Below the pieces are notes generated by a model that made no database searches, was not told the origin of the DNA, and worked only from the letters and a program-made list of their open reading frames with translations. A stretch of 64,000 bases of DNA, taken from Gracilaria domingensis. Its lineage: Eukaryota > Rhodophyta > Florideophyceae > Gracilariales > Gracilariaceae. Shown piece after piece: positions 576 to 30,039 of this stretch (its first letter is position 1; each line of letters begins with the position of its first letter). The DNA lies in the NCBI GenBank assembly GCA_022539475.1, contig VCMS01000017.1, forward strand, positions 62,001 through 126,000, read 5' to 3'. The translations under genes and the position numbers were made by a program.

Positions 576-2426
576 CTAAGACAGCCGATTCCTTGGCTTC
601 AAGGAGAAAAGAAAAGGAGTTCTGAATGGTATTTGGCTGTATTGCATGAGGACAGCCCTTCTGCGGTTCCCTAAATCACGGTAGCCAAGAGCAAATACCT
701 CTCTCCCAGTCTTTGATTCTCTTACTAGCAACCTCATCTCTCGCATTCCAGTACATGACAAGGTTCTCTTCCGCTTTCTCGAAGTACTTCCGCTACAGGA
801 AATTGGATGATTTCGAGAGCGTTTGCATGTGGCCATGAACCGGAGAGGAATCTGTCCGGAACTCATCCCTCCAATAATATCCTTTGTTGCATAAGCTCTG
901 TCAATTGCAATGATTGATCCTGCAATCATCTCAGCAGCAATTCGAGCATTGCTCGTGCGCATTGACATCATCAATAGCGCAGAACGAACTTCAGGAACGG
1001 TCTCACCTCGCATCGAGTTGTGTAGTGCGGCAGTTAATCCTGTCAAAGTTGAGGTTAGGGAAGTCGCATGCAGTCCCATTTCCTTCTTTCCATCCCCAGG
1101 CTTAAGGGGAAGTCTTTTGTGATAGCGTGAGGCAAAACGCAATTGATCGTCATCAAGTCCTAAAATAGTTGTCCCAGGACGAAGACATACTTCACTGGAA
1201 ATAGAAGCCACTGCCTGCTCTAAAACGTTTAGAGCAGCGGGGATATCTAAACGTAAATTTGTCCACTGCGAGCTACTGATTCCTTTCTTGCCTTCTCCAA
1301 CAGTACCCAGGCAAGACGTATACGAATGTCGCATTGCTTTAAACCTTCGAAAAGATATGCTGCGTCTGATTTCTTGCGTTTCATACCATTGTTCATGTTC
1401 GCTTTCCTGAAGAAGCTCAGACGGTGAACAGTCGTATACGTCGCACATCATCAAAGCCTGAAAGTAGTGCATAACGTCTTCTGAAGTGTACACTGATGGC
1501 TCCTCATCATTCTCAAATCTTCGAAAGTGACGATGTCCTAGGTTTGCTACATCGGCAAAAGAGTCCAAAACGTTCGAGTTGAAGAACACTTCAAACATTT
1601 GTTTTGCAGATGGTGGTTTTCGTAACAAAGACTCGGGGGTTGAGCCCAGACGATCACTCACCTTTCGAAGTATGTGAAATGATTCATCTATTAGTATATC
1701 AGTGGAAGCACCGTCTAGATCATCAACTTCTAGATCGAGATTATCAGAACAAACAGAAATCTCAACCCAAGCGTATGGTTGCTCACCATCGCCTTCATTT
1801 TCTGAGGAGTCGAACATGTCCTCATCGCTGTCAAGCATGAATTCAGAATCACTTGATCCGATTTCGTCTAAGGTAGTAATGTTTCCAGTACAATATTGTT
1901 CCGAATGTGTTTCCTTGTTCGTATTTGGGTTGGAGTTGGAGTTTTTATTGTCCCCAGTATGGCTCTTCTCTAGGTCTTTCTCATTTTGAAGTTTATGATT
2001 ACTTTCAATGTTCACTGGTTTCTGTTGAAACCGAAGTTTACTATGAGCGTAACTTGGAGGTTGGATTGCTTCTTCAGCTCTCCCCGGTCTAATCTCATCG
2101 GCTTCGTTGCATCCTGTGCAAATTCGAGGAGCACCATAGCCCTCGGGTTCCATTCCGGGTGCATACTTCTCCATTTCGGCATTGGTTGGAGCCCGACCAC
2201 AAATTGCATGCATTGGTCAACTGCAAAACAAACAAGAATGTCCGTGACATCCAGTAGGATCATGATGCCGGCAAGCCCCGTAAATTTTCTCCGCACATTT
2301 AGAAATTGTCGATTTCGTTTTACCAGAATGGCTACTCAACACTATTGAAGATGAAAGCTGTTGGGTCCTGTACATGAACATAACAAACATTAGCCACTGA
2401 CTCTTTGACTTCATATTGTATTTCAT
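576..2426 (-). pseudogene. PiggyBac-like (DDE_Tnp_1_7 type) transposase, broken
   Basis: The 545-residue reading frame (2213-576) has a PiggyBac-like layout. It has an acidic N-terminal region, then a block with FFNSNVLDSFADVANLGHRH and a Trp-containing EQWYETQEIRRSISFRRFK stretch. A candidate first catalytic Asp follows in ILGLDDDQL with a downstream LPLKPG, and a second Asp in IAIDRAYATKDI. Upstream in the same frame (2426-2217) is a Cys/His-rich zinc-binding stretch, separated by a single TGA at 2217-2219. The rest of the zinc cluster (MHAICGR) follows directly, so the TGA splits one domain. The frame ends at 576, but coding-like sequence continues in another frame to about 430. I read it as a decayed transposase. 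The family call rests on motif spacing only. Confidence 0.6.
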
Positions 2427-3172: not shown

Positions 3173-5801
3173 CACCCTCGTAACTATGACTGACTAACTA
3201 CCTCCATAAAACCAGCAACACTAACTAACTAACTTATGGATAAAGCTCAATATAGTCATTTTTAGTCATATTACGTGTACATCAAGAACACTTGTTCCAC
3301 GTGCAGTACGAAGCTCCCAAATATAGGTACTCTCAAGAGGCATGATGAGTTCTGAACGGAAAGCGCGATCAAGCTGGGTTGTCCGTGTCTTCTTGCTCGT
3401 TGGTCGCAAAGATGGTCAACTTTTCACAGCCAACATCAGCTGGAGCGCCACTTTCTGCAGCTGCCATCATTGAAAAGCAAGCTCAGCAACAACTAAAGCA
3501 AAGAGGACCAGGAAAAGGTCATGGATCCAGCACCAAATATTCGGTATGGAGCGCATTGTGCGCCACAGTTATCACAGATTCACAACGTCCTGCGTTTCAG
3601 TGTCAAATTTGTGGAGTCATCCGCCGAATTAACAAATCTTACTCCAACAGTGATATCTTGCTGCACTACAAAACGCATCACCAATCTGTCTACAACAAAG
3701 TGCAACGAGCCATACAGACTAACAAATCAGAATTTTCTATCAAACAACTTCTGCAAAGAGCCAAAGAGAAAAACGCGAATATCGCTAACTCATCTACATT
3801 TTCGTCATTTACTCTCCGCTCTCCCGAGGTTCTGCAAGTTAAGAATGTACCACCGAAGACAGTTCAGAGTGTTGCGCTGGTTTTATTTGCTTGCGCCACT
3901 GAAGTTTCTCTTTCTACTCTCGGTAGTCCAGTGCTACAAGGACTAGTTGATCTAATGGGCGGTCGTCTTCAATTTTCTAGCAAACAATTGGTGGATCGAA
4001 CTTTATTAACTACGTACAGAGCGATATGTTCTATTTTGCGAGTTAGAGTTGAGAAAGCAAAGACAGGGTCTTTGACTTTCGATGGATGGAGCGCTGCGCT
4101 TGGAGCTCCGATCATGGGTGTTACGTGGCATTATGTTGACGAATCGTGAAAGCTCTGCTCTTTGCCAGTCACGACGTTGAATATGAGAAATCTACCGAAG
4201 AATGCGCAAGAGCTTTGCAATGTTCTGACTGAAATCGTCTCAACCAACTTAGTTGTAGGCTCTGATGATATTCGTATCTCTACTGTGACAACGGACAATG
4301 AGGCTGCAACTGCGAAAGCAGTTGATATGTTTACAAATAACATGGGAGGTGTAAGGTGTACTGTCCATACACTAGCGTTAGTAGTAAATGATGTATTCTT
4401 GAAAAACACTCCGTGGCAATGCTATATGGAACATGTGAACAAAGTAACGTCATATTTTAATTATCACCCTAAGGCCCGCATGGCTCTATGCCAGAAACAG
4501 ATGGATGACTCTATAACGGCAGATCGCATTCAGCACCTGAGGCATGATATGAGTACAAGGTGGCATTCCAAACTGGCTGCCATGTCCACGTATATGGCAC
4601 GGTTGAAAAACATAGGGGAGGTTGCCGAAGAGCTATCTATTTTTTCTACAGACTTACCACACCTTTCTATTGAGAACAGCAATATTTTGGTGGAGATCAT
4701 TGCTGTACTCGGAGAGGTTCGGAGAGTCGCACGTCAATTGGAGGCTGATCAGAATGTTAGAATGTCTCGCGTACCTCGTGTAATACACGAGCTGTATGAA
4801 ACATTGCAGATTATGTCAGGGTCTTTGCAACCAAGCCCTCGACTGTTTCACGATAATGCAGACAGTTCACAGTTGAATTTATTTCTAGATCTAGAAACCA
4901 CAGCTCGCGCTCCTATTGTGAGCACTGCCGGCTACGATCTCGCAAGAGACAGAGCGCGAGATATTCGTCTCATTAAGCCAGCCGCAAAACAACTTTGTCA
5001 TAGACTTTGTGTCTCTCTTGTTGCTCGATTGGGAACTTTATGGGAACCCGTGCCGTCTGCTGCTTTTTTTTGGGGCACTGAGCAGAATGAGCAGTCCTCT
5101 GCTACAGGTTTACAGGGAAGTGAGCTTTTGAAGTATCGTCGGGTTCTGCTTTTTCATTTAGCCGCTTTGGTCGATGTCAATGAAGGTGAGTTTGAATTTT
5201 TGGGAGATGAGGGGAATACTCGAGAGGCTTACTTTTCTTTACTGTATGAAGCGCTTGCTCGCGAAGTGGTGTCTCTGGACAGTTCTTTAACGCTTTCTAC
5301 AAGCTCCTTGGAGACTCTGTTTGGGCTTATTCCCAAGGATGTGCAACAAGCCCTGAAAAATAAAGGACAGAAAGAACCAAACGAGGCTCTTATGTATTGG
5401 AAGCGAGCTAATGCGTCACTCGGTCTTGTTAGTCCTGTGCCTTTTAACACGGTTGTGCGCGCATTTCTGGGATCCCAAGCTTCCTCGGCTGCTGCGGAGC
5501 GATTATTCAGCAGCTTAGGTCGTGCGGAAGGCACGCAGTGCCAATCGTTGCTTTCGGGAACCATGGAGATGTGTCAAGTTATCAGGGAATATGTTTGAAC
5601 TGAACTACGTGGACGAGGCATTCAGCATGGTTTATTGCACTCAACGGGAGAGTCCTTTAAACGGATTGCGCTCAAAATCGCCTCAAAGGTATGGGAGGAG
5701 CATACGCAATGAGCATGACTAATGATGACTAACTTGGACAAAAAGGGGGTGACTATCATCTATTGAGGATGACTTATTAGTTAGTCATGTATACGGGCTT
5801 G
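3173..5801 (+). mobile_element. Complete hAT DNA transposon (2,629 bp)
   Basis: The ends are imperfect terminal inverted repeats. The left end reads CACCCTCGTAACTATGACT; the right end, read inward, is CAAGCCCGTATACATGACT. Both run into subterminal ACTAACTA motifs. The element is flanked by an identical 8-bp target duplication, GTTTCTTG, at 3165-3172 and 5802-5809, the size typical of hAT insertions. It holds one transposase gene on the plus strand. The intact duplication suggests a fairly recent insertion. Confidence 0.92.
3379..5598 (+). pseudogene. hAT-family transposase with one in-frame stop
   Basis: Two ORFs in the same frame (3379-4149 and 4162-5598) form one transposase of about 740 codons, split by a single TGA at 4147-4149. 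The N-terminal half has a BED-type zinc finger (CQICGVIRR followed by LHYKTHH) and the hAT hallmark LTFDGWSA. The C-terminal half has TTDNEAA and the hAT dimerisation motif SSAAAERLFSSLG. Family alignments usually have Trp where the TGA sits, so TGG to TGA is the simplest explanation. An alternative ATG lies 33 bases downstream at 3412. The element is otherwise intact, so it may have died recently, or the stop may be read through. Confidence 0.88.
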
Positions 5802-6381: not shown

Positions 6382-7212
6382 TCATACCTTTGCCAGGTCT
6401 TTCATTGTGTCTTGGAGCTCGAGCTCACGTCGCTTCGAGGGGGAAATGTAAGGTGGTCTGTTCAGTGGTCGCTTTCTCGTACTCACAATAACATTATGCT
6501 CACGATTGTCGTCAACGTTTTGTTCCTCCGAAGCTCCTTCAACAGCCTCATTCTCTACGACGGAGAGTCCGATGTGTTCCTCGAGATTAGAGTTGTATGT
6601 TTGACGAACCATTTTCGAAAGGATTTCTTTCTGCATGTTTTTCGCACGTCGAACGTAATCAGGACCCGTTCGATTCTGGTAGTACTGAAGTTTATCATAC
6701 TTCTTTTTGAGTGCCTCTGATTGTCTTCTTGGTCTTTCATTCTGGTATGCGTATCTATTGTAATCGCGGTGGATCAATGCCCATCCGTTCATGCCCTTTG
6801 GTTCATGTTCTTCGATGATATCTAACAGAACATTTACGTCCCCTACTGTGTAGTTCATGGCGTTGGCTGTTCTTCCCTTTTTCTTCTTACTGTTCGTAGC
6901 TGTTTCTATATTGTCTTTTTCTTCGTCATGTTGGACTACAGGCGTAGATTGACTTGGTGTTCGTGGAGCTAAAGGCCTTTGGTGATCCTTGTTTGGGGCT
7001 TTAGCATTCTTTGCCTTTAGTGCGTTTGGTTCCTGCGTTACATTGAGATCACTAGAATTGTCACCCTCTTCTTCTGCCAATAGGTACGCTTCTTCGTCTC
7101 CAATGTGAACCAAATTTTCTACTCGTAGCACTTGTCCTGTCATTTTGTCGAAAAAGAATCTGTTTTCTTTCAGTTCGTAGTTTAGCGCGCGATTTCGGTT
7201 GAAACTGAACAT
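6382..7212 (-). CDS. Myb/SANT-like DNA-binding protein (DUF6818-type)
   Basis: A 276-residue ORF. Residues about 115-190 form a SANT-like helical domain: YTVGDVNVLLDIIEE, then GMNGWALIHRDYN, then a basic ALKKKYDKL helix and a TGPDYVRRAKNMQKEI helix. This pattern matches the DUF6818 family found in algae and oomycetes, often near transposons. A Lys-rich stretch (SKKKKGR) just before it could be a nuclear signal. The stop overlaps a possible donor (AAAG|GTATGA) and coding-like sequence continues to about 6207, so the true C-terminus may be longer. It lies between a hAT element and a DIRS remnant, so it may belong to a mobile element. Confidence 0.55.
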   Translation of the reverse strand: MFSFNRNRALNYELKENRFFFDKMTGQVLRVENLVHIGDEEAYLLAEEEGDNSSDLNVTQEPNALKAKNAKAPNKDHQRPLAPRTPSQSTPVVQHDEEKDNIETATNSKKKKGRTANAMNYTVGDVNVLLDIIEEHEPKGMNGWALIHRDYNRYAYQNERPRRQSEALKKKYDKLQYYQNRTGPDYVRRAKNMQKEILSKMVRQTYNSNLEEHIGLSVVENEAVEGASEEQNVDDNREHNVIVSTRKRPLNRPPYISPSKRRELELQDTMKDLAKV

Positions 7213-7240: not shown

Positions 7241-7540
7241 CTAGCGCGCGGGAGGCCACTCGAAGACTACTCGCTTGTTATGCATACCTGCAAAAAGACA
7301 GCCAGGGGTTACAACGTGAATTGTGTAACCAGTTTGGCTGTGTCCTGCCAGCGCGGCAGTTACTGCCTTTGTAGCATTTAGGAAACTAGGAATTTTTGGC
7401 TGCACCCAGTATATGATATAGAGATATGGCAGAGATATGCTGTGGAAGCGACGCTGTGCCGATACGGCCCTCACGAGAGAGATACCCTATGTATGCCAAA
7501 ACGTCACCCTCATTCGCTGGCATTGGGCAGCGGTGGTCTT
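7241..7540 (-). pseudogene. Tyrosine recombinase N-terminal fragment (DIRS-like), downstream half
   Basis: Two overlapping minus-strand frames together read as the SAM-like core-binding domain of a tyrosine recombinase (DVLAYIGYLSREGRIGTAS, then HISAISLYHIL). The frame then shifts near 7395 to TKAVTAALAGHSQT. Removing the copia insertion and one copy of its 5-bp duplication joins this fragment in frame to the open sequence at 14,557 and above. The catalytic Arg, His-x-x-Arg and Tyr boxes are not found before the sequence changes near 7240, so the enzyme is truncated as well as split. Confidence 0.7.
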
Positions 7541-7853
7541 TGTCGTACAAACGCGAATGCTTGTAAAAGCTGACTTTGTACAATCAAAGTAGTTTGGAGC
7601 AAAGAGGTTTTAGGGAGCACGTCTCTTCGTGCTCCGGTGAAGTTTCTTTTATTGAACTTCAAACTAAAACTCTCTACCCCCGCTTCCTCGCAGCTGTGCT
7701 GCGAGGGGCTAATGGCTTAAGAACGACGACAGGAGGTCGCTTGCGCCTTGAGGTGCAGGCGAGCTCACCGGAGCTACTTTGTCAATCAGTTTCTTCAGCG
7801 AGATCGTAGCACAGAGCGACAGGCTGTCGCATGTGCTTCAGTCCGAATTGACA
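7541..7853 (-). repeat. 3' LTR of the copia element
   Basis: 313 bp, almost identical to 14244-14556, with TG...CA termini (TGTC...GACA). Left-flank duplication GTCTT is at 7536-7540. ORFs inside it occur identically in both LTRs and are not genes. Confidence 0.95.
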
Positions 7854-7862
7854 CTCCCTCCT
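7854..7862 (-). promoter_or_regulatory. Polypurine tract of the copia element
   Basis: Directly inside the 3' LTR the minus strand reads AGGAGGGAG, an uninterrupted purine run at the position where plus-strand DNA synthesis of LTR elements is primed. Confidence 0.7.
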
Positions 7863-7991
7863 ACGACGGTACTGTCGTTGTTCTATGAGAAATAAGTTAG
7901 ACAAATAAACAAGCGGGTGCCATGGAAAAGGCTGACGTTCCTTCGTGATAGTTTCAATCTCATCGCAACAGGAGCGGGTGCTTAAAGATCG

Positions 7992-8002
7992 CATATATAT
8001 AG
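7992..8002 (+). promoter_or_regulatory. Candidate TATA box for the antisense ORF
   Basis: CATATATATAG lies about 95 bp upstream of the ATG at 8096, oriented towards the antisense ORF of the copia element. The assignment rests on position and sequence only. Confidence 0.4.
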
Positions 8003-8095
8003 AGCAATCAAAAGAACCGAGAGATGGTTGCCATCGGCGTCATAAGTGCTGTGTTCGGTAGTGGTACTGGCTAGACTTCAGAAAGAAGTGACGCC

Positions 8096-9172
8096 ATGTT
8101 CCATAACTTTAACAGCAGCATGGGGTTAAAAAGCTCCAAGACAACGCAGCCATTGAGCGAGCAGAAGAAAGCCAGTGATAAGAGTAATACCGCGCTGCGT
8201 GATACTGCCACGCTGATCCTGAAAGACAGCAGTAGTAAGGGGACCAAAACGAAGACACAAAAAACGAGGCCAGTGCAAAGGGGGGTAAATAGTGAGAAGA
8301 GAAGATGGGCAATAGAGAAATTAATGGCATACTACCCGGAGCGATTGGAAAGAGGGTGCCGTGAACTTCAGTTCGGGGCCATGTGTAGCAACCAAAATGG
8401 AATTGAATCTAGATTCCGAATTGATATTGAGTCCTAGCAGACTTCGGGTTGGAGATATGTGTCATTTGAGGTGAATGCCGAAACGGAAACGGCAAAACGG
8501 TTACCCCTCCCGCCTGCACCCGTCCCTAGAATACACAAAGGAAATCGAAGAAAAGCGAGTGTGGTCATTCGAAACTCGCTCAAACGATGGTGCACATTGC
8601 ATCCGGGGTTTTCGGTTTCAAAAGTTGGTCCAGGCGTACGAGGTGAGAGTAAGACAGCGCGTACGTTCCACAAGCAGAGTGCGATTATGGTAATTCCGGA
8701 AAAGAAAGGAGGATGCTTGCAGTTCTCGGTGGCAAATGCAGTGGCCAGAGTTGCGAATCTCGAAATTGCAGATGGGTGGAAGGCGATGGTTCAAGCGGAA
8801 CGGTTGAATTTTAAATCCATTGGTAGCACCCAGTGCTCACTCCATAGAGTGTCGCCGAGGCTGAACTTGAGAAAAGTAAGAGACCCAGAATTCAGGAAGG
8901 ACAAATTCCAATGGCTCGGAACACGAAAGAAGGGTGTCTTTTTGGTCCGTTTGAGGGCCGGCAACCAAGTGGATCACTGTGTGCTTATAGATGCCGGTGA
9001 GCGAGAAGTATTGGATAATGAAGAAAAACAGGCTCTCGAGTTATCAGCGGAGGCTATTAAGGCCTGTGTGGGGATGGTGTCGAGAGGTTGTATGTTGCTG
9101 AGGTACGGGAATTGTACAGGCAAGAGTAGCATAAAAACTTTCACCCTCGTACAATCCACTGCTCGGGTGTAA
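8096..9172 (+). pseudogene. Antisense accessory ORF of the copia element; possible papain-fold cysteine peptidase
   Basis: It is encoded opposite to gag-pol, between RNase H and the 3' LTR. Two plus-strand ORFs share a frame and are separated by one TAG at 8435-8437. The first (8096-8434) is Lys/Thr/Ser-rich. The second has GGCLQFSVANAV, with Cys near 8714, and VDHCVLIDAG, with His near 8975, followed by VLDNEE. This Cys ... His ... Asp/Asn order and the small residues around Cys resemble papain-fold peptidases or related hydrolases. The last 32 bases overlap the end of RNase H tail-to-tail. The peptidase call is an inference from motifs. Only GTG, not ATG, is available just after the stop, so the 8096 start is preferred. 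Confidence 0.5.
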
Positions 9173-12100
9173 TCGAAAGAAAAGAAAATGATAACAAATT
9201 TCTCAGGGAAGCTTGCTGCATGCGCTTGGTTAGGCCATCCGCAATATTATGGGAGATTCGAACAAAGCCGATGTCAGATATCAGCTTCATCTTAAATCCT
9301 TCGCGGGTTGCAGCGATGTCCAACATCATGCGTTTTTCTGAGGTTCGAGATCCCTTAGAGATAACATCGAAGAGTGATTTGCTATCGGTAAATAATTGCA
9401 CTGGAACATGTCTCCTAAGCAGAACGTTTAGTTCTGTGGCTAAGGTGATAGCAACGTCGAAGAGATCTGAGAATGTGATCACTTCACCTGCCATAGCTGA
9501 TCGTGTTACACGCCTCGATTTGTATGACTTGAAGTGAACCGGAATGACTTTCCCGGTCTCATCACCCAGAAGACAATTATGACCAAGCTGGGAGGTGAAA
9601 TCTTCATTGTTGGCAAATGAGGAATCCGAAAACCCAATCACTCGTAGGGAAGGAAAGTGCAATGAAGGAAACGCAATGGATAAAAGGTTCGACTTGGCGT
9701 ATCTAATGGTTCTGTTAAGCTGAGCAATGATTACTCTTCTGTTCTTCTCGAAGTATTCCTGCGTAACCTGCGCCATTCGCGAAATTTCGAAAAGACAATC
9801 AGGACGAGTGTTAGAGAGCTACCCAAGTTTTATACGCATAGACCGGAACCTTGAAAACGAATCGGTGGGTTGGAGCTCTTCTAGTTTGCGCAGGTAGGAA
9901 TGTTGTTCCATTTCGATGAAGCCGTCCTGATTGTGGTTTAGCGAGAATCCAGTAAAGACACATGGTGGGGATTGCTCCTCCTTCATTTGGAATTGAGTCT
10001 TGCTGATATCACAAATGGACTTGAATTGGTCGTCTCCTGCACGTATCCAGTCATCTACGTAACATCCAGACAAACCTTGTAGTAGGTCGTTGTTCATAGA
10101 GTAGTAGAGAGTGGGATCCGATCTGAGCGGTGTCATGCCCAGCGCTTGTTTGTGGTGAGAATCTAGTGTCTTAAACCAGAGGTCTCCAGATTCGCATAAA
10201 CCATATAGAGGTTTTAAAAGCTTGAGGCATTGAGATGGTTCAAGCTCAAATTCGGGGACGGGCTTGGTGATAAAGACTTCGCGCGAGAGAGGTTCGGCGG
10301 ATTGGAGGTATGCTTGCGTAATATCCGATGTCCAAATTTTGAATCCGAAGATAGCAGCCAGTGCAAGGAGTAGTCTGATGGACGGCGGTTGAAGTGTGGC
10401 TGAGTTATATACCATGAGGTTCTTCAGTCTATCGCGGTGGCCGCCAATTACATATCGAGCACGATACTTGATCTTACCATCTTCGGTGGATTTGATCGCG
10501 AATACGAAACGACCGGGAAGGATATTTGCGTCCGGTGGTATCTCTTCGCGGAGAATGACTTTGAATGTGCCTCTCTCTGACAGACCTTTGATTTCAGCCT
10601 TTTTGGCTTCGGTCATTTGCTCGGATTGAACGCGAGGGTCGTTCTTGTCAAGTATTTCGGTAAGGTATATATAGTCTTCGCGTGGGGAACCGAAGGAAGA
10701 CAGCGAGTTGTGAAGGTCGAGGAAGAATGAGTTGGCAAGAGTCTCGGGCTCGTAATAGCGTTTGATTTGCGCTAAGCCAAATGGGGTAGAAGCTCCAATT
10801 GGAACATCCTGAATGTATGCCATCTTCTTGTCAGTGTCTATGGAACTGACGGTGAAGGGGCCAAGCCACTCGCCTATTCGATTGTTGACGACGTTCTCCC
10901 TCCAGACGAGCACTTTATCGCCAGGAGAATAGGTGAAATTTGCAGCGGGCGGTACTTTGTGGCGGAGGGGACGGTCAATCTTGAGTTTCGACATGATGCG
11001 TTGCGTTTCGGTTCGAGCCGTTATCGCGATTTCAGCGCGGTTTGCAAGGGTAGCTCGCGGGGTACGGGGTTGTGATCTCGTAAAGATAGGTGGGAATTCG
11101 CCAAATACAAGTGCGGAAGGGACCAGACCCTCAGGGCCTAATGTGTCGTTCATTGACTTGACTGATACAGCGAGTGCAAGATGAGGGTCAGTGTTTGGTT
11201 CATGGGCCATGACCTTGCGATATGTTTGGCGCAATGGTTGGTGATATCTCTCATTGATGGAGAGACTTGAATGGGCCTCGACTCTTGTGCGGTCAACATG
11301 CACGTTTGAGGATGCGGCAATGTCAATGAAAAGGTTTCCAAACGCGCTCCCTTGGTCGACGAGCATCTTGTTCGGGAGTCCAGTATATATAGAGACCCAG
11401 CATAGCAGTATTGTTTTCCAAATGGTCTTCGTGGAGACATCTGGGAGAAATGCAGCGGAGGAGAAATGCGTGTCTGCGTCGACGATATGCAAGACCGGTT
11501 TCCCATCGATGTACATGATGTCTAGAAGAACCTTTTCGTTGAAGCGAACGTTCTCTGATCCGACGGAAACGCCGAATCGTGTGGGGGCATTTTGGATCCG
11601 CTGGCAGGGATCACAGCGTTTGGTAATATCTTTCAGGATCGCATGAGTTTCCGGGGTTGCATCCTCAGATTTTGACCGTTTCAGAAGGTTGAACAGTTTG
11701 TCCGCTGACGGGTGAAAGAATTGCTTGTGTAGTTTGTGCAGTTGTGTGCGGGTGAAGTAGGAATTGCTTGGAAGAAGCATTTCGGCATACACATGACCGC
11801 TGCCTGCTCTTTGCAATGGCACAAACCAATCATCGAAATATGTGGGTTCACCATCCGGGGGTTTTATGCATGATCTCTTGACCAGCCTGTTCGCCACGGT
11901 ATCTGCAATTAAGGATTCTCTGTCGAGGATGTCCATTCCGAGAAGAGCGGGGATGTCTGCTTTGACCACTTCCAGAGAGACGAGAATGGGTGGTATGTTT
12001 GGAGGGGTGGAGAGGGGGATAGTGATTTGACCCAGTGAATCGAAGCTGGCGTCCGCAAATCGAAAGCGTGTGCAAGATGGCACCCTACGCAGACCTGGGA

Positions 12101-12437
12101 CGCGCATGTTTAAGCTTGAGAAAATGCGACGGAGTTCCTTGATGCCGATGACCAATCGCGGGGCACCGATGTCCACACAGAATCCGTCCATACGAGATCG
12201 GGTCCTGGATTTTGACAGTTTTGTACAATAGATATGGGTGAGGTCAATTTCTACAATGCTGTCAGGGGGTTTCTGCCTCAAATAGGGAGCTCGCTTGGAA
12301 GCTACCCAACGTGCTGGACGGCGGGAGGGAGGCTTGAGCTCCCGACGTCCTAATGAAAATCCGCGCCATGCGTACGTTCCGATGGTAGGTCGGGATTCGA
12401 TGCGTTCATGGTGGCGGATAGATGATTGGTGAACCAT
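9141..12437 (-). pseudogene. pol: copia pol: protease, integrase, reverse transcriptase, RNase H
   Basis: One frame carries PR, IN, RT and RH. A protease-like DIGAP lies at about residue 89, with LLGMD at 165-169. The integrase zinc domain has His 237 and/or 242 with Cys 275 and 278; its catalytic residues are Asp 306, Asp 361 and Glu 396 (INERYH). A basic integrase C-terminal stretch follows near 500-540. The reverse transcriptase has SDITQAYLQ at about 704 and YVDD at 793-796. A TAG at 9819-9821 then interrupts the frame, and RNase H continues in the same frame to 9141, with FSDSS, ATELN and FTDSK. Copia proteins usually have Trp near the stop (before LSNTRPD), so TGG to TAG is likely. DIGAP instead of DSGA/DTGA at the protease site is unusual. 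Confidence 0.9.
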
Positions 12438-13099
12438 TCCTTATCGGTAGCTTCAATAGCGTTCTGAGGGGGGTCTATATCACCAGACGTAAGTTTGTCG
12501 AAAAGCAATGTCTCTTCGAGAATTGCATCTGTTTGCTCCACAATACTTTCTGATGCATCGTTATTGTTCTGTTCTCCCTCCATTGTAAGAACCAGATCAG
12601 ATACAATATGTACGGCAGAATCACCTTTGGCAAGACGTTGGCGGACATGGTTTCTGATAGCACCAGGTTTGCATCGGTGGCCTGGTTTCCATTGGTTGTG
12701 ACAACGATGGCATTCTCCGCGACGGCGGCTTTCTTCGAAAGAGCGGTAGTTACCGTAGCGGGTTGGTCCCTTATGGCGGGCGTCTGGGAAGTTATAGATT
12801 TCACGAGGGTTATGCTTGCGCACTTGCTTGGGGTTACGAACGTACTGTTCGTATAACGTTTCCTCACCCTCGAAAATGTGTGTATCGGAGCGTTTCGCGA
12901 CTTCTTTGATCTCCTCTTCAAGTTGGAGGTTTTCGCGAAGCGCGGTAATAAAGCCGTTGAACGAGTACCTGGAAGTAACGATATTGCCGATTGGTAATTT
13001 GGCCCAATTGATTCCGAGAACGGCCTTCCTAAGGTACCCAATCTTGTGCGCCTCCGACCTAAAATGCGGGGGACATTGTGGAGCTAGTTCTCCGATCAT
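12350..13099 (-). CDS. gag: copia gag C-terminal half with zinc knuckle
   Basis: A 249-residue frame. It begins with a capsid-like stretch (PQCPPHFRSEAHKIGYLRKAV and INWAKLPIG) and carries a zinc knuckle (CHRCHNQWKPGHRC) near residue 130. This knuckle form, C-x2-C-x7-H-x-C, recalls those of some Ty3 and copia elements of algae and fungi. The ATG overlaps the stop of the upstream gag frame as ATGA, and the 3' end overlaps the pol frame by 88 bases, so gag, this piece and pol lie in three different frames. Either frameshifting is used or this copy carries indels. Confidence 0.75.
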   Translation of the reverse strand: MIGELAPQCPPHFRSEAHKIGYLRKAVLGINWAKLPIGNIVTSRYSFNGFITALRENLQLEEEIKEVAKRSDTHIFEGEETLYEQYVRNPKQVRKHNPREIYNFPDARHKGPTRYGNYRSFEESRRRGECHRCHNQWKPGHRCKPGAIRNHVRQRLAKGDSAVHIVSDLVLTMEGEQNNNDASESIVEQTDAILEETLLFDKLTSGDIDPPQNAIEATDKEWFTNHLSATMNASNPDLPSERTHGADFH

Positions 13100-14178
13100 G
13101 CTAACGACCTTTTTGTGAGTGCTTCTGAGAAGGTGCTTATGTCATTTTGGGACATCACTTTCTCGATTCGGAGTGTACTCAACATATCATACACTTGAAT
13201 CTGACGTGCGTTGCTGTTGTACTCGTCAGTCATGAGCACTGCCATGTCCTCGAATGTCATATCATCACGAGCATTCGTGAAGAAGAAAGTGCGAGCCGGA
13301 CCATCGAGGATGTTCACGAAATAGTCTGCTTTTTGAGAGGGAGACAACCGGTGCTGGAGAGAACAGACGTTGTAATCGCGAATCGTTAGTTCGATAGACT
13401 GCGATATATCACCTGTGAAGCGGTTGTCCTTAAAGTGCTGGAAAACGTAGTTAGCCTTACGAGTGTCCTCCACGTTGTGTCCGTTGCGTTGAAAGGTCTT
13501 ACGTGCATGGTTGTGAGGACCAACATTGCTCTGAGTGTGTTCAGCAGCAGCTTCTCCTTGTCCGATGTGAACCTGACGAGCGTTAGCATGGTGGGAGGAC
13601 CTCGGAGCGCCGTTCTGGTTATGAGTGCCAGCCTGAGGGATATTTTCAGTAGGAGGCATAGTGGAGGGGTCAGCGTTATTAGCGGGTCCCTGAAGCGAAC
13701 CAAGACGAGAAGAACTGCGGCTTTGCCGATACATGTCCACTCCAGTCTTCATCGTGTCAAAGGAGGCCTCGAGATAGCTCATGAACCAGATGTGAGTGAG
13801 AAGTGATCGATTGGATGTTTCGCGTGACTCCAGACCAAGGGCAGAGATGATGCCTGAAGGTACTTCATCCAGGTCATATAACAAAGCCACATCACGAATG
13901 ATTTGGACCGGGAAGAGCGGGGCGTTGAAGAACTCAGGTGTGAGAATGGCATCCGGGGAAGGAAGGAAACCTTTCAAAGTGACCATGACTTCTTCCTTGC
14001 GAACCGCAGTGAGTGGTATCGGAGAACCGTTGTCATCAACAGGAGGATACATGGAAGTAGTGTAGTTTGCCACATCACGAAGCTGGTGACCCATTTCCGT
14101 CGTAGGCTTTACAACAGAAATAGAGCGCTTGAGACGATCCCATCTTGCCGGGGTTTGGGAGCGTGTAGTAGAAGACAT
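13096..14178 (-). CDS. gag: copia gag N-terminal half
   Basis: A 360-residue frame beginning 65 bp inside the 5' LTR boundary. The C-terminal third is capsid-like: FTGDISQSIELTIRDYN, DYFVNILDGPARTFF, then DDMTFEDMAVLMTDEYN. The middle is rich in Ser, Asn, His and Gln, as in gag linkers. It ends with TGA overlapping the ATG of the next frame, so the capsid domain is divided between two frames. Confidence 0.8.
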   Translation of the reverse strand: MSSTTRSQTPARWDRLKRSISVVKPTTEMGHQLRDVANYTTSMYPPVDDNGSPIPLTAVRKEEVMVTLKGFLPSPDAILTPEFFNAPLFPVQIIRDVALLYDLDEVPSGIISALGLESRETSNRSLLTHIWFMSYLEASFDTMKTGVDMYRQSRSSSRLGSLQGPANNADPSTMPPTENIPQAGTHNQNGAPRSSHHANARQVHIGQGEAAAEHTQSNVGPHNHARKTFQRNGHNVEDTRKANYVFQHFKDNRFTGDISQSIELTIRDYNVCSLQHRLSPSQKADYFVNILDGPARTFFFTNARDDMTFEDMAVLMTDEYNSNARQIQVYDMLSTLRIEKVMSQNDISTFSEALTKRSLA

Positions 14179-14243
14179 CGCTTTGATTCAGATATCTGAA
14201 AGTCGGATACGTTAAACAAGCACTTAGCGTTTGGAATCCGGAT

Positions 14244-14556
14244 TGTCGTACAAACGCGAATGCTTGTAAAAGCTGACTTTGTACAATCAAAGTAGTTTGG
14301 AGCAAAGAAGTTTTAGGGAGCACGTCTCTTCGTGCTCCGGTGAAGTTTCTTTTATTGAACTTCAAACTAAAACTCTCTACCCCCGCTTCCTCGCAGCTGT
14401 GCTGCGAGGGGCTAATGGCTTAAGAACGACGGCAGGAGGTCGCCTGCGCCTTGAGGTGCAGGCGAGCTCACCGGAGCTACTTTGTCAATCAGTTTCTTCA
14501 GCGAGATCGTAGCACAGAGCGACAGGCTGTCGCATGTGCTTCAGTCCGAATTGACA
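14244..14556 (-). repeat. 5' LTR of the copia element
   Basis: 313 bp, direct repeat of 7541-7853 with TGTC...GACA ends, followed by the target duplication GTCTT at 14557-14561. No primer-binding site complementary to a familiar tRNA end was recognised just inside it. Confidence 0.95.
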
Positions 14557-16771
14557 GTCTTCGTCACAAAACTGTAAACATTTTGATAACTGTGACGTTC
14601 GGTTCTTCCACGTAGACTCAGACCAACCGTAACTGGTCGAAAGCCTTGCAGCCTCCTCAGCTCCCCCAGTCGCCAGGCCAGCTCCAGCGCGTGAAAGCAC
14701 TGTTGCCTGGATGCCCGGCTTCCACGTCTCGGTCAATCTCTGATGGCGAGAACGAGACCCCAACCCGGGTTGTTGATTGCGCGATCGTCCAGACGGTGCA
14801 GAGCGCTGCGGGCCTGTTCGCCATCGAGATACACCATCCGGGAGCTCCATGCCCCTAAGCGCGCGAACCAAGCTTGCGCGGGCCAATTCGGCGCGATCAG
14901 TAGTCCTTTCGCCTCCTCCATGTCCAGCTTCCGCACGACGGTGGGCAGGAGGTCGAACGGGGGAGCCCAAAGCCTCGCCCGGCCGTCTGACCAAGGATGG
15001 TGCAGCTCCTCCGCTAGGTACTTTCGCCGTGCCTGGTAGGCTTCGTTGAGCGGACGTGCTCTGAAAGAGACTTCGTCCAAGCCATGCTCGAGCCGGATTG
15101 CGTCGATGAATGCCTTCATGGCCGTAACATCCGCTGGGTTCCAGGTTCGAGAGAGGCGGTCTGCAAACCGGTTGACTGCTGTGGGTATCCAGCGAGACTC
15201 CAGCCGCACTCCAAGCACCTTGAGCAGTACTTGTATCTTGCGGAACTCGCTCATCATCGGTGGTGATGCGGCAACCATCGCGTTCAGCGCAGACACCACC
15301 GCCTAATTGTCCTCGTGTAGCAGTATCTTCCGTACCTCTAGTCTGGATACGAAAGCCGAGAAGTGCCGGTGTAGCAACAGGCGGACTGCGCGAAGCTCGC
15401 GCACTGTAATCGACTGCGTGCGATCCGCTGCCGTCCAGAAACCTTGAACCTCCCACAAACCCGGCGAACCGGGTTCCATGTCGAGCCCCAGGGTTCCACC
15501 ATAGCCGATGTTGCCTGCGTCCGCATGCATACACAAGTCGTTTGCGACTCGGTGCATGTCCCGGCCCTCTCCGCGGGTAAGTTCTCGCCAGTAGCGCATG
15601 TCGCGGAGAGATTGACGTGAAAAGCGCACCCTGCAGGATCCCGGTGACTTGTCTCCATCGCGGGCGTTGGACAGCTCCAGTGCCGTCTCTGGCTGTAGCT
15701 CTGACGATTTCCTTTCCGCCAAGGACAGATCGCAAGATAAGGATCGCGTACAGAACCGAGCGAGCGGCAGCACTAGCGACAGCGACACACAAACGCCGCA
15801 GAAAGTTTGGAGCAGAGAAGCGGCCACAAGCCTTCTGTTGCGTTGAGCGAGTAAAAGAATCTTCTTTGCGAGCCGCTGTACACGCTGCACGTTCCCATCC
15901 GTGACGTAGATTTTCATCTGTTGCGTGTCTATACGCATTCCCAGGTGATCTATCACAGTAGAACCCTCCCAACAGCTCTTCGAAGGGTGTCGTAAAATGC
16001 CCATCCGCCCGAAGAGAGCGGAAAGATTCCGAGAGGCTTCGATACAGTCTCTTGAGGTTGTTGGCCGGTGTGATAGTGATGTGGCCAACAGAAAGTCGTC
16101 GATGTACGGTAACACACGGTAGCCAAAGATTCTTTGGATATGCTGGACCACGACTCGCATCATTTTCGTGAACCACATTGCCGATCGCCCCCACCCAAAT
16201 AAAAGAGCGACGCCGCGAAAGTACCGCCCTGCGTAGCGGAACAAGAAATACTCTCTTATATCGGGGTGTACGTACATACATACCCCCCCTTGATATCCCA
16301 GGACATCAGGATGTCGTTCCGCTGAAAGTCCAGGGCAATTGACGGAAGGGTCTCCATGCGCACTGTACCATTCAGCCAGTGCATACTTTGCCGATGAAAG
16401 TTCAGGACGAAACGACTTTTTCTCTCTTGCCCCTCTCGAGTCCAAGTGCTAAAAGCTGAGGATATCATACACCCACGTGCCAGACATAATTTCGCGTACG
16501 CAGCTGAGACGTCCTCGTAAACCCTAGTCCGAGTCTCTTTGTTGAGGTCGGACAAGCCGAAGGTCTTGTCCACCTCCGATTGGGAAATGTCGCCGGGTTC
16601 GGTGCCACGATCGAATGATGTAGCTGGCATATCTCTTATGCCATGCTTGCTCGTGCGCACAATAATCTCGGTGGCCTTGATAGACCGCCATGCGTCGGCC
16701 CTTCGGGACGTTCGGCGCGACAGCGATTCTCCCCCGGAACCAGTCGTGACGCCGGGTCTCTCTGGCAACAT
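14557..16771 (-). pseudogene. DIRS-like reverse transcriptase, RNase H and start of tyrosine recombinase
   Basis: On the minus strand, KSRFVLNFHRQS and SWDIKGGY (first catalytic Asp) end the first frame near 16,256. The RT continues in another frame with FFRG-type context, WFTKMM and YIDDFLL (catalytic YxDD). RNase H follows; a TAG at about 15,300-15,302 sits between LLHEDN and AVVSALNAM. SRWIPTAVNRFADRLSR is the typical DIRS RNase H end. WAPPFDLLPTVVRK and NWPAQAWF follow, then the recombinase SAM-like start (WKNRTSQLSKCLQFC), where the copia element interrupts it. The RT frame change lies at a GTAT/GTAC microsatellite beside seven Gs, suggesting slippage. RNase H between RT and a tyrosine recombinase defines DIRS-type elements. 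Confidence 0.85.
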
Positions 16772-25831: not shown

Positions 25832-26002
25832 ATTAATGACAAAATTACTTTTTATATAGCATAAATTACTTTTTATATAGCATGAATTACTTTTTTTTTA
25901 TGTGCCATTTATAAATGCTTTTTATGTACATATATGATAATAATCGAGACTGCGTCGAGACTGTGGCAACTATCCAGGTCATGCTCGACTAAGAACAATT
26001 AC
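25832..26002 (-). repeat. Right arm of the long inverted repeat
   Basis: Reverse complement of the left arm (22,506-22,696), with an extra tandem copy of a roughly 21-bp AGTAATTTATGCTATATAAAA unit. It ends abruptly at GTAATTGTTC (reverse strand), after which the sequence becomes extremely GC-rich. No clear target-site duplication flanks the two arms. Confidence 0.88.
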
Positions 26003-27098
26003 ACGGCGGCCAATTTCGGCAGGTGCTTCAACGTGGCTGCAGCCTGAGGCTGCAGGTGAACTGTGGCAAATGCGGCGCGGCGCGGCGCGCGCGTGTGCGT
26101 GCTGTGCGCGCTGGCCGCGTGTGGCGCACGACAGCTTGTGCTCGACCGCCTCGGTCACGCAGATTTGCGGCGCCGCGCGCATTGTTGCCGCCCGCGAGGT
26201 GCGGCGCGTGCGCACGTGTGCGCGTGGCGGCGTGCGCCACGTGCGCGCCGCGCACCGGCGCGCGCTAACGGCGCGCGCTAACGGCCGCGCGCGGCGTGAT
26301 GCGCAGTCACGCTTTGCGTCAAACGGCCGTCACCGCGGGCGCGCGGTAATTCACCCACGTCTGCGCGCACACAGCGTTGGATTCCGCAGCGCGCGTGGCG
26401 CGCCGCTTTCTGCGATGCCTCTCCCCCCCACGCGCGCGAGAGCACTCGTCGCGCCGCAAGCGCCGCAAGCGCCGACAGCTCCGCGCGCGGCGCCGCATTT
26501 TCTCGCCGCGCGCGCCGGCGGCGGCGGAGGAGGCGCGCGCGCCGCCGCGCCGCCGCGCCGCCGCGCCGCCGCGCCGCCGCGCCGCCGCGCCGCCGCGCCG
26601 CCGCGCCGCCGCGCCGCCGCGCCGCCGCGCCGCCGCCGCGCGCTGGCGCGCGCCCGCGCGGCGTCCGCAATCACTTGGCGCGCGCGGCATAACGCGCCGC
26701 CGGCGCGGCGCGTACCTTCGCCGGTAAGACAAGCGCCGCGTCGCGCCAAATCGCGCCGCGCGCGCGCGCGCCGCGCGCCGCGCCGCCATTGGCCGCCGCG
26801 CCGCAATGCCACGGCAAGCCAACTGTGCGCGCGCGCGCCGTCACGCGCGCGCCGCCGCGTTTCTACGCGCGTCACGGCGGCGCCCGCAATCTGCAGCTCG
26901 CGCGCCGCCACGCGCGCGCGCACTGGCAAATATCTGCCGCTGCTGACGCAAGCCGCGCGCCCGTCTTAGCGCCGCGCCGCGCTTAAGTTGCCGCCGCCGC
27001 GCGCCCGTCTGCCCGCGCCGCTGCTGCTTCCGTCGTGTGCGCGCCGCCGCTGCACCCCGCCGCAGCCACCCCCCCCCTTCCCCCCCTCCGCCCCCGCC
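26003..27098. other. CpG-dense GC-rich leader region of the oxidase gene
   Basis: Almost pure G+C with very frequent CGCG, and no believable gene. ORFs on all frames are Arg/Ala/Pro-rich artefacts of composition. It presumably includes the promoter and 5' UTR of the oxidase gene. Confidence 0.6.
26536..26640. repeat. GCCGCCGC octanucleotide satellite
   Basis: A run of about twelve 8-bp units, GCCGCCGC, nearly perfect for about 100 bp. Any frame through it gives 8-residue repeats such as RRRAAAPP; these are artefacts of the repeat. Confidence 0.9.
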
Positions 27099-29807
27099 AT
27101 GGTCAACTTCCAGCTGCCGCCGGACGCGCCCGCGCGCGCCGACCCGCCGCCCGCGCCGCTCGACGCGCCGCCCGCGCCCGCGCCCGCGCCCGCGCCGCCC
27201 GCCGCGCCGCTCGGCGCGCCGCCCCCGGCCGCCGCCGCCGCAGCCGCCGAGGAGCAGCCGCTCAAGCCGGCCGCGCACAAGATGCCCATGTTGGGCTACC
27301 TGAAGCGCGCGTCCGCCTCCATCGAGGCCAACCTCTCCACGTACGCGCTGCTGTTCCTGTTCCTGGCGTTCTACGCGCTGGTCAACGCGCTCATGTGGCT
27401 GTGGGGCTTCCACGGCGAGATTGTGCACCAGCCCAACATCAACCTGGGCCCCACCTTCCGCTACATCATTGGCGTGGCGCGCGGCGCCGGCTACACGCTC
27501 AACCTCAACACGTCGCTGGTGGTGCTGCTGGCCGCGCGCTACACCTTCACGTCGCTGCGCGACACGCCGCTGGCCAACGTGCTGCCGCTGGACAAGGCGT
27601 TCCCGCTCATGCACATCATCGTCGCGTACGCCACCGCGCTGGGCGTCGTCATCCACGCCTCCTTCCACTTTGGCTGGCTCATCGGCTGGGACCAGTGGGA
27701 CGACGGCGGCCTGTGGAGCTTCAACATGTCGGTGGCCACGGGCGCCGTGCTCACCGTCATCTTTGCCGTCATGATTGTGTTTGCGCAGCCCAAGCTGCGC
27801 CGCTCGCACTTTATCACCTTCTACCGCGTGCACCTCATCGGCGCCACCCTCTTCTACGCCGTGCTCATCTTCCACGGCATGTACCGCAAGCGCCCCGAGA
27901 CGTACAAGTACATCATCCCGTCGCTGCTGGTGTACATGCTGGACCGCTACCTGCGCCACGCCAAGGCGTCGTCCACCACGCTGCAGCTGTCCTCCACCAA
28001 CTCCTTCTTCAAGGACAACACCGTGCTGGAGCTGCGCGTGCCCAAGCCCTTCGACTACATGGCGGGCCAGTACGTGGAGCTGCAGGTGTCGTCCATCAAC
28101 CGCGAGTGGCACCCGTTCACCATTGCGTCCGCGCCGCAGGAGGAGACGCTCGCCGTGTACATCAAGAAGCTGGGCGACTGGACCGGCGAGCTGCACGACA
28201 TCTTCGGCGCGCGCATCCGCGGCGAGCAGACTTCGATGATCGCCGTGCGCGTGCGCGGCCCGTACGGCGCGCCGTGCCAGCACGTGCGCGGCTACGACCG
28301 CGTGGTGCTCATCTCGGGCGGCATTGGCGCCACGCCCTTCTCCGCCGTGTGCAAGGAGCTGCACCACCTGCAGGCCAAGGACGGGCTCAAGCGCGCCGTC
28401 ACGGAGCGCCGCGCGCGCGCGCAGACCACCGCCGACAAGACCGCCGCCGAGAAGCGCGTGCTGGGCGTCATCTCCGAGCTGTACAAGCTCAACGTGGACG
28501 CCGCCGTCAACGAGGTGTCGGCCATTGACGAGCAGCGCTCCGCGTATGTCACCGACATACTGCGCTTCAAGTCGATGCGCCGCCCGACCATGCGCCTCAC
28601 GCTGTCGCACGGCTTCTCGTCCGACGAGGACGACGACGATGAGTCCGACTCGGACGACGTGCAGCCGCCGATGGCCGGCGGCGCCGGCGGCGGCGCATTC
28701 GCGGACAGCGACGAGCAGTCGCCGCTGGCGGACGTGCCGGCCGTCAACCTGGCGCGCAAGTTTGTGGGCCGCGACGACTCCATCTTCATCGCCACGGCCA
28801 AGCGCGGCGCGCGTCGGCGCCGGCAGCTGACGCATATGGAGGACGTGCGCTCGCAGCTGCTGTCGGTGCTGCACTCGACGCGCATGCAGTTTGTGATCCT
28901 GCTGCTGCTGATGGCGCGCATCGCCGTGATCTGCATCGGCAGCATCTGGCACTCGACGTTTGTGTCGGTGCTGCTGACCGCCATCCCGGACGAGCCCAAG
29001 GGCAAGTACGTGGTGATTGCGGACACGTTCCTGTCGGGCATTGTGATGGTGCTGCTGCTGCTGACGGTGGCGCTGGAGCTGTCGCTGCTGCGCTCGCACT
29101 ACCTGTCCAACCCGGCGCGCGTGCTGGACGTGACGCTGCTGGTGCCGGCCGCCGTGGCGTCGTTCGCGCTCAACGTGGACGCGTACGCGCGCGGCGCGCC
29201 CATCAGCTCGGGCGTGATCGCGCTGCACTACGTGGTGTGCCTGCCGGTCATGTTCGCGCTGATGCTCACGCGGCTGCACGGCACGCTGGGCGGGCGGCGC
29301 CTCACGGACGTGGGCGGCTGCGGCTGCGAGACGCAGGACACGGTGCCGGACGTGGACTTTGTGTGGACGTCGCAGAAGGCGGACGACGACCTGTGGCTGC
29401 GCAACGAGCTGGAGCCGCTGGCGTCGGGCACGCAGCTGCGGCTGCACCGCTACCTGACGCGCGAGAAGACGCTGGGCGACGAGGAGGGCGGCGCCGACGA
29501 CGACTTCATCACCAAGACGCGGCTGGGGCGCCCGGACTGGGACGCCATCTTCTCGGAGGTGATGGGGCGCGCCAAGAGCGACGCCACGGTGGGCGTGTTC
29601 TTCTGCGGGCCGCACCGCATGGGGCAGATGATCCGCAAGAGCATCCGCAAGGTGGAGGTGGTGTCGGCGCTCAAGGGCGCGTACCTGCGCGGCTTCGGCT
29701 CCAAGACGGTCAGCCGCGACATGGGCGTGGACCAGGACGTGGTCAAGGCGCTGCGCGAGCACGGCTGCGCCGTGCGCTTTGTGTTCCGCGAGGAGAACTT
29801 TGGCTGA
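27099..29807 (+). CDS. rboh: Respiratory burst NADPH oxidase, red-algal type
   Basis: 902 residues; the ATG at 27099 has a strong initiation context (CCGCCATGG). A Pro/Ala-rich cytosolic N-terminus lacks EF-hands. Two bis-heme pairs with the H-x13-H spacing are His172/186 and His245/259. FAD binding is HPFT at 338-341, and the first NADPH block is GGIGATP at 407-413. A long insertion follows with an acidic linker (about 509-520) and four hydrophobic helices (about 597-616, 638-660, 676-693, 705-724). The final NADPH block is FFCGP (CGP at 836-838), and the protein ends in ENFG. It would move electrons from NADPH across a membrane to make superoxide. The extra helices are characteristic of red algal homologs. 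Third codon positions are nearly all G or C. Confidence 0.95.
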   Translation: MVNFQLPPDAPARADPPPAPLDAPPAPAPAPAPPAAPLGAPPPAAAAAAAEEQPLKPAAHKMPMLGYLKRASASIEANLSTYALLFLFLAFYALVNALMWLWGFHGEIVHQPNINLGPTFRYIIGVARGAGYTLNLNTSLVVLLAARYTFTSLRDTPLANVLPLDKAFPLMHIIVAYATALGVVIHASFHFGWLIGWDQWDDGGLWSFNMSVATGAVLTVIFAVMIVFAQPKLRRSHFITFYRVHLIGATLFYAVLIFHGMYRKRPETYKYIIPSLLVYMLDRYLRHAKASSTTLQLSSTNSFFKDNTVLELRVPKPFDYMAGQYVELQVSSINREWHPFTIASAPQEETLAVYIKKLGDWTGELHDIFGARIRGEQTSMIAVRVRGPYGAPCQHVRGYDRVVLISGGIGATPFSAVCKELHHLQAKDGLKRAVTERRARAQTTADKTAAEKRVLGVISELYKLNVDAAVNEVSAIDEQRSAYVTDILRFKSMRRPTMRLTLSHGFSSDEDDDDESDSDDVQPPMAGGAGGGAFADSDEQSPLADVPAVNLARKFVGRDDSIFIATAKRGARRRRQLTHMEDVRSQLLSVLHSTRMQFVILLLLMARIAVICIGSIWHSTFVSVLLTAIPDEPKGKYVVIADTFLSGIVMVLLLLTVALELSLLRSHYLSNPARVLDVTLLVPAAVASFALNVDAYARGAPISSGVIALHYVVCLPVMFALMLTRLHGTLGGRRLTDVGGCGCETQDTVPDVDFVWTSQKADDDLWLRNELEPLASGTQLRLHRYLTREKTLGDEEGGADDDFITKTRLGRPDWDAIFSEVMGRAKSDATVGVFFCGPHRMGQMIRKSIRKVEVVSALKGAYLRGFGSKTVSRDMGVDQDVVKALREHGCAVRFVFREENFG

Positions 29808-29930
29808 TCAGGCTCTCCGCCGTGTAATTGCAATCAAGTTGTGTGCCTCTCCCTCCCAGCGTGCTCGCGGCCTCCGCCTGTGTGTGGGCCATCTCCCTCC
29901 GCCTGCGATCTCGCTCCCATTTCCAATCAC

Positions 29931-29942
29931 TTTGAGATCAGC
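29931..29942 (+). promoter_or_regulatory. Shared upstream element of the duplicated gene pair
   Basis: TTTGAGATCAGC lies 109 bp before the ATG at 30040. The same 12 bases lie 109 bp before the ATG of the paralog (33226-33237 and 33335). The surrounding leader is also similar, including the CCTCATCC-GCGCACAATG / CCTCATCC-TCGCACAATG context. It is either a conserved promoter element or simply part of the duplicated segment. Confidence 0.45.
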
Positions 29943-30039
29943 TGATGAACCCTAATAGCATAAAAAAAACCAGCCTCCCGCCGCGCAGCCTTTCGTCTGC
30001 ATGCGTTCTCGTCCACCTCCTCGCCCTCATCCGCGCACA

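Follow-up and report, generated by a model that had tools for sequence, protein, structure and literature searches.

The question addressed here is what is encoded by a gene lying antisense within a retrotransposon of the red alga Gracilaria domingensis, and what such a gene might do for its carrier. The DNA analysed (the window) is a stretch of 64,000 nucleotides from contig VCMS01000017.1, in which a complete Ty1/Copia-type long terminal repeat (LTR) retrotransposon occupies 7541..14556 on the minus strand and hosts, on the plus strand, an antisense open reading frame (ORF) at 8096-9172. Members of the same gene family were found beside the main genes of two Copia, one Gypsy, one hAT and one Transposase_21 clade, and structure models of relatives predict for the family a papain-like fold of the clan CA type.

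The antisense gene and its predicted product

The frame starts with an ATG at 8096 and continues for 113 codons to a TAG at 8435-8437, followed by 244 open codons from 8438. It lies inside the Copia insertion between RNase H and the 3' LTR, tail-to-tail with pol, and shares 32 bases (9141-9172) with the RNase H frame; this placement, proposed in a first-pass annotation of the sequence, is borne out by the LTRs, the GTCTT duplication and the RVT_2 match of the element. In the family protein, the predicted peptidase appears to be preceded by a basic N-terminal stretch and a small, conserved domain. In the window, the N-terminal part (8096..8434, +) comprises the basic stretch and the small domain (W.IEK.M) and is ended by the TAG, and the second part (8438..9169, +) corresponds to the papain-like peptidase domain, as judged from the fold of relatives. 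The window copy is broken, having one TAG and a C-terminal end which is shifted to another frame compared with its siblings.

The Cys, His (DHCVLID) and Asp (VLDNEE) motifs pointed out in the first-pass annotation are present in this frame and fall in columns which are conserved across the family rows. The predicted nucleophile is a Cys codon at 8714..8716 (+) within GGCLQFSVANAV, with Cys in 35 of 35 aligned rows. The predicted catalytic His codon is located at 8975..8977 (+) within VDHCVLID (His in all 34 rows with a residue at this position), and the predicted third catalytic residue is an Asp codon at 9014..9016 (+) within VLDNEE (Asp in 28 of the 31 rows with a residue there, and Glu, Asn and Gly in the other three). 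The resulting order of Cys, His and Asp/Asn is, as a sequence order, that of clan CA.

A check by structure prediction, suggested together with these motifs, was favorable to a cysteine-peptidase fold: the best solved-structure matches to AlphaFold models of two relatives (from overlapping alignments) were papain-like cysteine peptidases, and in the first model the invariant Cys opens a helix with the His in a strand. Two toxins, one papain-like (9l5u) and one of the CDI type (8ssm), are among the highest-ranking fold matches, as is phytochelatin synthase. By sequence, no solved structure was found for the window ORF, and searches with the family profile and with the N-terminal domain returned only a row at E 1.9 and a row at E 1.4, respectively.

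Of the papain-like, OTU and C39 folds named at first pass, the papain-like one was recovered. By sequence, a Pfam search of 35 members at E 0.5 gave no match to OTU, C39 or Josephin. The predicted fold and the position of Cys before His are shared with C39 and Josephin, and Josephin is close by fold; the family differs from them in lacking a sequence match, an ABC transporter (no transporter domain in the Pfam results of the 35 members, as would belong to a C39 setting) and a conserved Gln before the Cys. In clan CA a Gln before the Cys forms the oxyanion hole, although this is not universal in the clan; no conserved Gln was found at -1 to -6 of the Cys in the aligned family rows. Peptidase_C7 was matched in one of the 35 members, at 13.2 bits against a cut-off of 27 (E 0.091), and was rejected. 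Ulp1 (C48), with the catalytic order His-Asp-Cys, was also set aside, as Cys precedes His in the family. A chromodomain-like N-terminal domain had been suspected from its pattern, and nothing supports it.

The TATA-like box reported about 95 bp upstream is indeed present (TATATATA, about 7994..8001, +), some 95-102 bases ahead of the ATG at 8096, and both box and ATG are kept in the four close copies aligned, that of the window included. Its interpretation as a promoter of the gene's own is weakened on two counts: conservation extends over most of the 200 bases ahead of the ATG, and stretches of the TATATATA type, weak taken alone, occur three times in the inner part of the element and four times in the window. 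With the stretch from box to ATG conserved as well and the motif recurring, the sequence suggests a possible own promoter for the antisense gene at this position.

With the translation of the second ORF part as query, at least 105 matching rows were found in the alga's own genome (77.9 Mb), which places the ORF far beyond chance. Ten of the 12 phycobilisome-family matches in this genome fall on a single contig, in keeping with a red alga, although a glaucophyte or cryptophyte would fit them too. Hand-merging of 14 fragment rows left 91 loci; all family counts come from this one genome, and the genome-search lists are lower bounds. It had been asked whether the ORF occurs without the TAG in other copies, and this proved to be so: sibling L009, with 87% identity over query residues 1-210, is open at the TAG position of the window copy (349 codons), and several more distant copies are open.

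The close copies are under coding constraint. In the 23 pairs with a synonymous divergence (dS) below 0.3, the ratio of nonsynonymous to synonymous divergence (dN/dS) was 0.29-0.63, with a 95% interval below 1 in 19; the four pairs with intervals extending past 1 (L022/L024, L024/L026, L025/L026 and L034/L035) have few changes each. By group, the ratio was 0.31-0.39 in the window's own group (three pairs, the window being represented by 8438-9064 only), 0.38-0.63 in the second Copia group (15 pairs), 0.29-0.40 in the hAT group (three pairs) and 0.34 and 0.49 in the Gypsy group (two pairs). A value of 0.11 was obtained for the Gypsy pair L034/L037, but at a dS of 2.5, and all 15 Copia1_far pairs and nine of the 15 Gypsy pairs, in which dS was saturated, gave no ratio and were left unused. 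Third codon positions change most in all seven pairs counted.

A further family member, at C339:34335-35480 (L041, L062), is open over 382 codons, with no transposon domain recognised by eye in the 4 kb downstream; it is possibly a host or domesticated copy.

Family members beside different types of element

Sorted by partner, the 91 loci comprise 22 with Copia clade 1, 31 with Copia clade 2, 12 with Gypsy, five with hAT and five with Transposase_21, leaving 16 without an assigned partner. In 70 of the 75 assigned loci, namely all those with a Copia, Gypsy or hAT partner, the family gene and the main gene converge. The gene had been presented as a feature of Copia, and while it does lie inside Copia, it is not restricted to that type of element.

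Copia clade 1 has 26 RNase H rows with at least 65% identity; the gene lies convergent within 250 bp of 22 of them, and of none of the 22 further rows compared at 40-62% identity (comparison of 95 of the 105 family rows with 48 of 150 RNase H rows). Every one of the 31 loci of Copia clade 2 (L024-like) is convergent, and the gene was found in 38 of 70 rows compared, fragments included (28 of 150 RNase H rows, and 70 rows from a list with 152 matches). The Gypsy carrier L027 holds the gene behind a pol with RVT_1 (E 9.7e-36), an integrase domain and Asp_protease_2 (E 1e-8). Ten Gypsy loci are convergent with an integrase of the L027 type at a gap of 299-354 bp, from a set of 14 integrase rows with at least 70% identity; two others were recognised in fetched DNA, C42 having an RT_RNaseH domain and C347 an integrase end read by eye. 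The Gypsy integrase comparison scored 120 of 1909 candidates, and absence from the element lists is weak evidence.

The five hAT loci are convergent with a gap of 449-459 bp, and the transposase copy at C230 matches DUF659 and Dimer_Tnp_hAT. The hAT copies C230 and C82 align at 95-96% over ~4.6 kb; their similarity stops within a different ORF, and terminal inverted repeats were not found. At the five Transposase_21 loci the family gene is on the same strand as the transposase gene and 2.6-3.0 kb upstream of it; C387 and C409, as well as C209 and C319, have equal partner scores and may be assembly duplicates. LTR pairs were found in one of eight loci of one set (L012) and in none of the three of the other (L022, L024, L026). 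Both LTRs are demonstrated for two carriers only, the window element and L012, which display the conserved antisense ORF between pol and 3' LTR that characterizes an antisense aORF; the other LTR-element carriers are placed by position behind pol.

The antisense gene behaves as a cassette. Where it is present, RNase H and the 3' LTR are separated by 1287 bp (window) and ~1258 bp (L012), whereas in the clade-1 relatives C78 and C221, with no detected gene, the same purine tract with an LTR-like TGTC start is reached ~100 and ~40 bp after RNase H (one such start was seen in each, the second LTR being outside the fetched DNA). L012 has LTRs identical over 290 nt, a target duplication CCTTT and a frame which is open through the peptidase domain, pointing to recent movement of a gene-carrying element. 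No gene was detected at the Copia-1 rows C110, C78 and C221 (two rows), at the Gypsy integrase rows C417, C22, C570 and C506 (92-95% identity) or at more than ten hAT rows at 69% identity or above. The six stretches behind gene-less RNase H rows (L049-L054) gave no family profile match at E < 0.1, with one at 0.18.

The carrier groups are linked by profile comparison, with values of 96.2-99.6% in nine of ten pairs compared with 0.1-0.2% in all five RNase H controls; hAT against Transposase_21 gave only 15%, Transposase_21 being represented by a single sequence. The gene tree sorts by carrier: it needs six label changes, where shuffling gave a mean of 18.2. One change each is due to Copia 1, Copia 2 and hAT, and two are due to Gypsy, among whose rows two unassigned ones fall. 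This tree excludes L010, L020 and L021, which have frame breaks, and its deep forks are weakly supported, with several long branches. The pol genes of Copia and Gypsy are distant relatives of each other, and the hAT and Transposase_21 transposases are unrelated to pol. In view of this and of the Copia, Gypsy and hAT relatives without a detected gene, the gene is more likely to have been exchanged between elements, or captured several times from a single source, than to have been inherited from a common ancestor. No relatives were found in viral_contigs (three queries) or in the prokaryote genome_contigs (one query, plasmids not searched) by pattern scans, which reach close relatives only, nor among phages by tblastn with one query.

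Some further features were observed at these loci. At C387, a 555-codon ORF with no Pfam match at E 0.01 (L056 1775-3439, +) separates the family gene from the Transposase_21 gene, and L024 has a second plus-strand ORF of 342 codons with a coiled-coil-like composition (636-1664, +) upstream of the family gene. At L051 (C221:63300-66300), RNase H and the LTR-like start are followed by a gag-like ORF in the same orientation, which looks like two elements arranged head to tail. At C13:127365-143708, RNase H matches of the Copia type recur four times at a regular spacing of ~5.25 kb, as a tandem array of elements. An open frame of 21435 aa is listed for C70:185711-186001, perhaps a masked or N stretch.

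The Copia element and its surroundings

The window element has TG...CA ends on its LTRs and is flanked on both sides by the 5-bp target-site duplication GTCTT (7536..7540 and 14557..14561). Its 3' LTR (7541..7853, -) and 5' LTR (14244..14556, -) are each 313 bp and differ at three of 313 bases. The polypurine tract GGAGGGAG adjoins the 3' LTR at 7854..7861 (-), and the junction GGAGGGAG|TGTC recurs in L012, L050 and L051. The RNase H region (9141..9776, -) was assigned from its position after reverse transcriptase and from homologues beside the antisense gene elsewhere in the genome, having no Pfam match of its own. Integrase and reverse transcriptase are encoded at 9819..12437 (-), with RVT_2 (residues 633-855, E 1.5e-19) downstream of an integrase core match in one ORF; the latter, rve at residues 300-386, reaches 24 bits against a cut-off of 32.6. 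The Ty1/Copia assignment is based on integrase preceding reverse transcriptase, RVT_2, the LTRs and the target duplication, with rve below cut-off. A gag-pol junction region with a zinc-knuckle-like stretch, read by eye (12350..13099, -), and a gag-like ORF called by position (13096..14178, -) are kept in siblings, with no Pfam family above cut-off for either.

Elsewhere in the window, a hAT-like transposase extends over two frames at 3379-5598 (+), with matches below cut-off to Dimer_Tnp_hAT (E 0.015) and DUF659 (E 0.1). Convergent with it is a 276-codon ORF at 6382-7212 (-) with weak Myb/SANT-like matches, and the two possibly represent another transposon with a tail-to-tail second gene. A 545-codon ORF is found at 576-2213 (-), and the G+C content climbs to 68-74% at 26001-30000 compared with 47-56% in adjoining 2-kb blocks.

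Possible roles and relation to known accessory genes

We give about an even chance to the family being a transposable element-borne accessory family which encodes a papain-like Cys-His-Asp protease or isopeptidase acting in trans on a host target. The convergent arrangement suggests that it is expressed separately from the genomic RNA, as described for the plant gene Grande gene23, which is transcribed from a promoter upstream of it (PMC7264820, PMC11963269). The antisense gene would be transcribed from its own promoter and may have moved between element classes, and its protein would act on a host target common to all carriers. The carriers have neither a common polyprotein nor a single recombinase, so the substrate is most simply a host protein. 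Deubiquitinases (Josephin) and effectors directed at the host are among the fold neighbours, so the protein would most likely strip off a ubiquitin-like tag or cleave a host factor of silencing or restriction, with the outcome that the protein may help the element to escape host defence. A portable anti-defence enzyme of this kind, passed among Copia, Gypsy, hAT and Transposase_21 elements, mostly tail-to-tail, and disarming a common host silencing or restriction pathway, is held tentatively, at somewhat below even chance.

The same enzyme could instead act on the element's own transposition complex, by detagging integrase or transposase (ubiquitin, SUMO-like) or through repair factors. The near-constant placement beside the main gene of each element agrees with this, as does the proposal that the Ulp1/OTU domains in proteins of Ginger1, Mutator and Helitron act in transposition (PMC2836005). 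However, the integrases of LTR elements differ from the transposases of hAT and Transposase_21, making a single self-substrate less likely, and with same-clade Copia relatives lacking a detected gene it seems dispensable for transposition; we regard this alternative as unlikely. Slightly lower still is our estimate for a papain-fold protein which is not a protease (deamidase, acyltransferase or transglutaminase), or for a toxin-like addiction protein keeping the element. The fold matches to 9l5u, 8ssm and phytochelatin synthase would be consistent with such a protein, as would the absence of a Gln at the usual oxyanion position.

Processing of the element's own proteins, one of the functions put forward at first pass, appears improbable. 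Retroelements need a protease, and no aspartic protease domain was detected by Pfam in the Copia ORFs of the window, but expression would have to come from the opposite strand. Moreover, hAT and Transposase_21 elements make no polyprotein; this, together with the Asp_protease_2 domain of Gypsy L027, makes Gag-Pol processing unlikely. The occurrence of one gene family beside Copia, Gypsy, hAT and Transposase_21 genes speaks against such processing and for the host-acting option raised in the same annotation. Least probable of all is that the antisense RNA alone matters, with the ORF as a mere side effect. In LTR elements, antisense transcripts can regulate without coding (PMC7264820), whereas dN/dS is below 1, third-position changes predominate in the seven pairs, the catalytic columns are kept over 35 rows, and at the Transposase_21 loci the gene has the same orientation as the transposase.

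The components of the preferred reading, a host-acting accessory enzyme, each have known counterparts. The plant aORF-3R genes (Grande gene23, RIRE2, Retand TRP28) also are antisense, occupy the interval between pol and 3' LTR and are kept across copies (PMC7264820, PMC11963269). Their products are unknown or DNA-binding-like, whereas the algal family has a predicted papain-like fold and is found beside Copia, Gypsy and DNA transposase genes. The Ulp1/OTU domains of Ginger1, Mutator and Helitron likewise represent Cys enzymes resembling ubiquitin/SUMO proteases in mobile elements, but that of Ginger1 is a C-terminal domain of the transposase, and the algal gene is separate, of another sequence family and common to retro- and DNA elements (PMC2836005). 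In bdelloid rotifers, one accessory ORF3 module (GDSL, DEDDy) occurs in different retroelement classes, although the enzyme types are others and sharing is reported among retroelements only (PMC5408684). VANC of the Arabidopsis VANDAL transposons is also an accessory protein countering host silencing, but does so through sequence-specific loss of DNA methylation, with no peptidase fold named in the abstract of the study (PMC5735166).

A papain-like antisense gene in LTR elements did not turn up in the open-access literature searched, which covers only part of what is published, and its combination with sharing across element classes is absent from the literature searched, with the components each known separately. 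According to a 2020 review, none of the plant antisense accessory genes had been described as clearly similar to other proteins (PMC7264820), and a 2025 study reports the TRP28 domain of unknown function and a few other domains in antisense genes (PMC11963269). With a predicted enzyme fold and a conserved active site, the question of function becomes testable for antisense accessory genes. Presence beside the genes of both retrotransposons and DNA transposons of one genome narrows the job of the protein to a common challenge, most simply the host cell. If true, this would be an accessory gene which crosses the boundary between the two classes of transposable elements.
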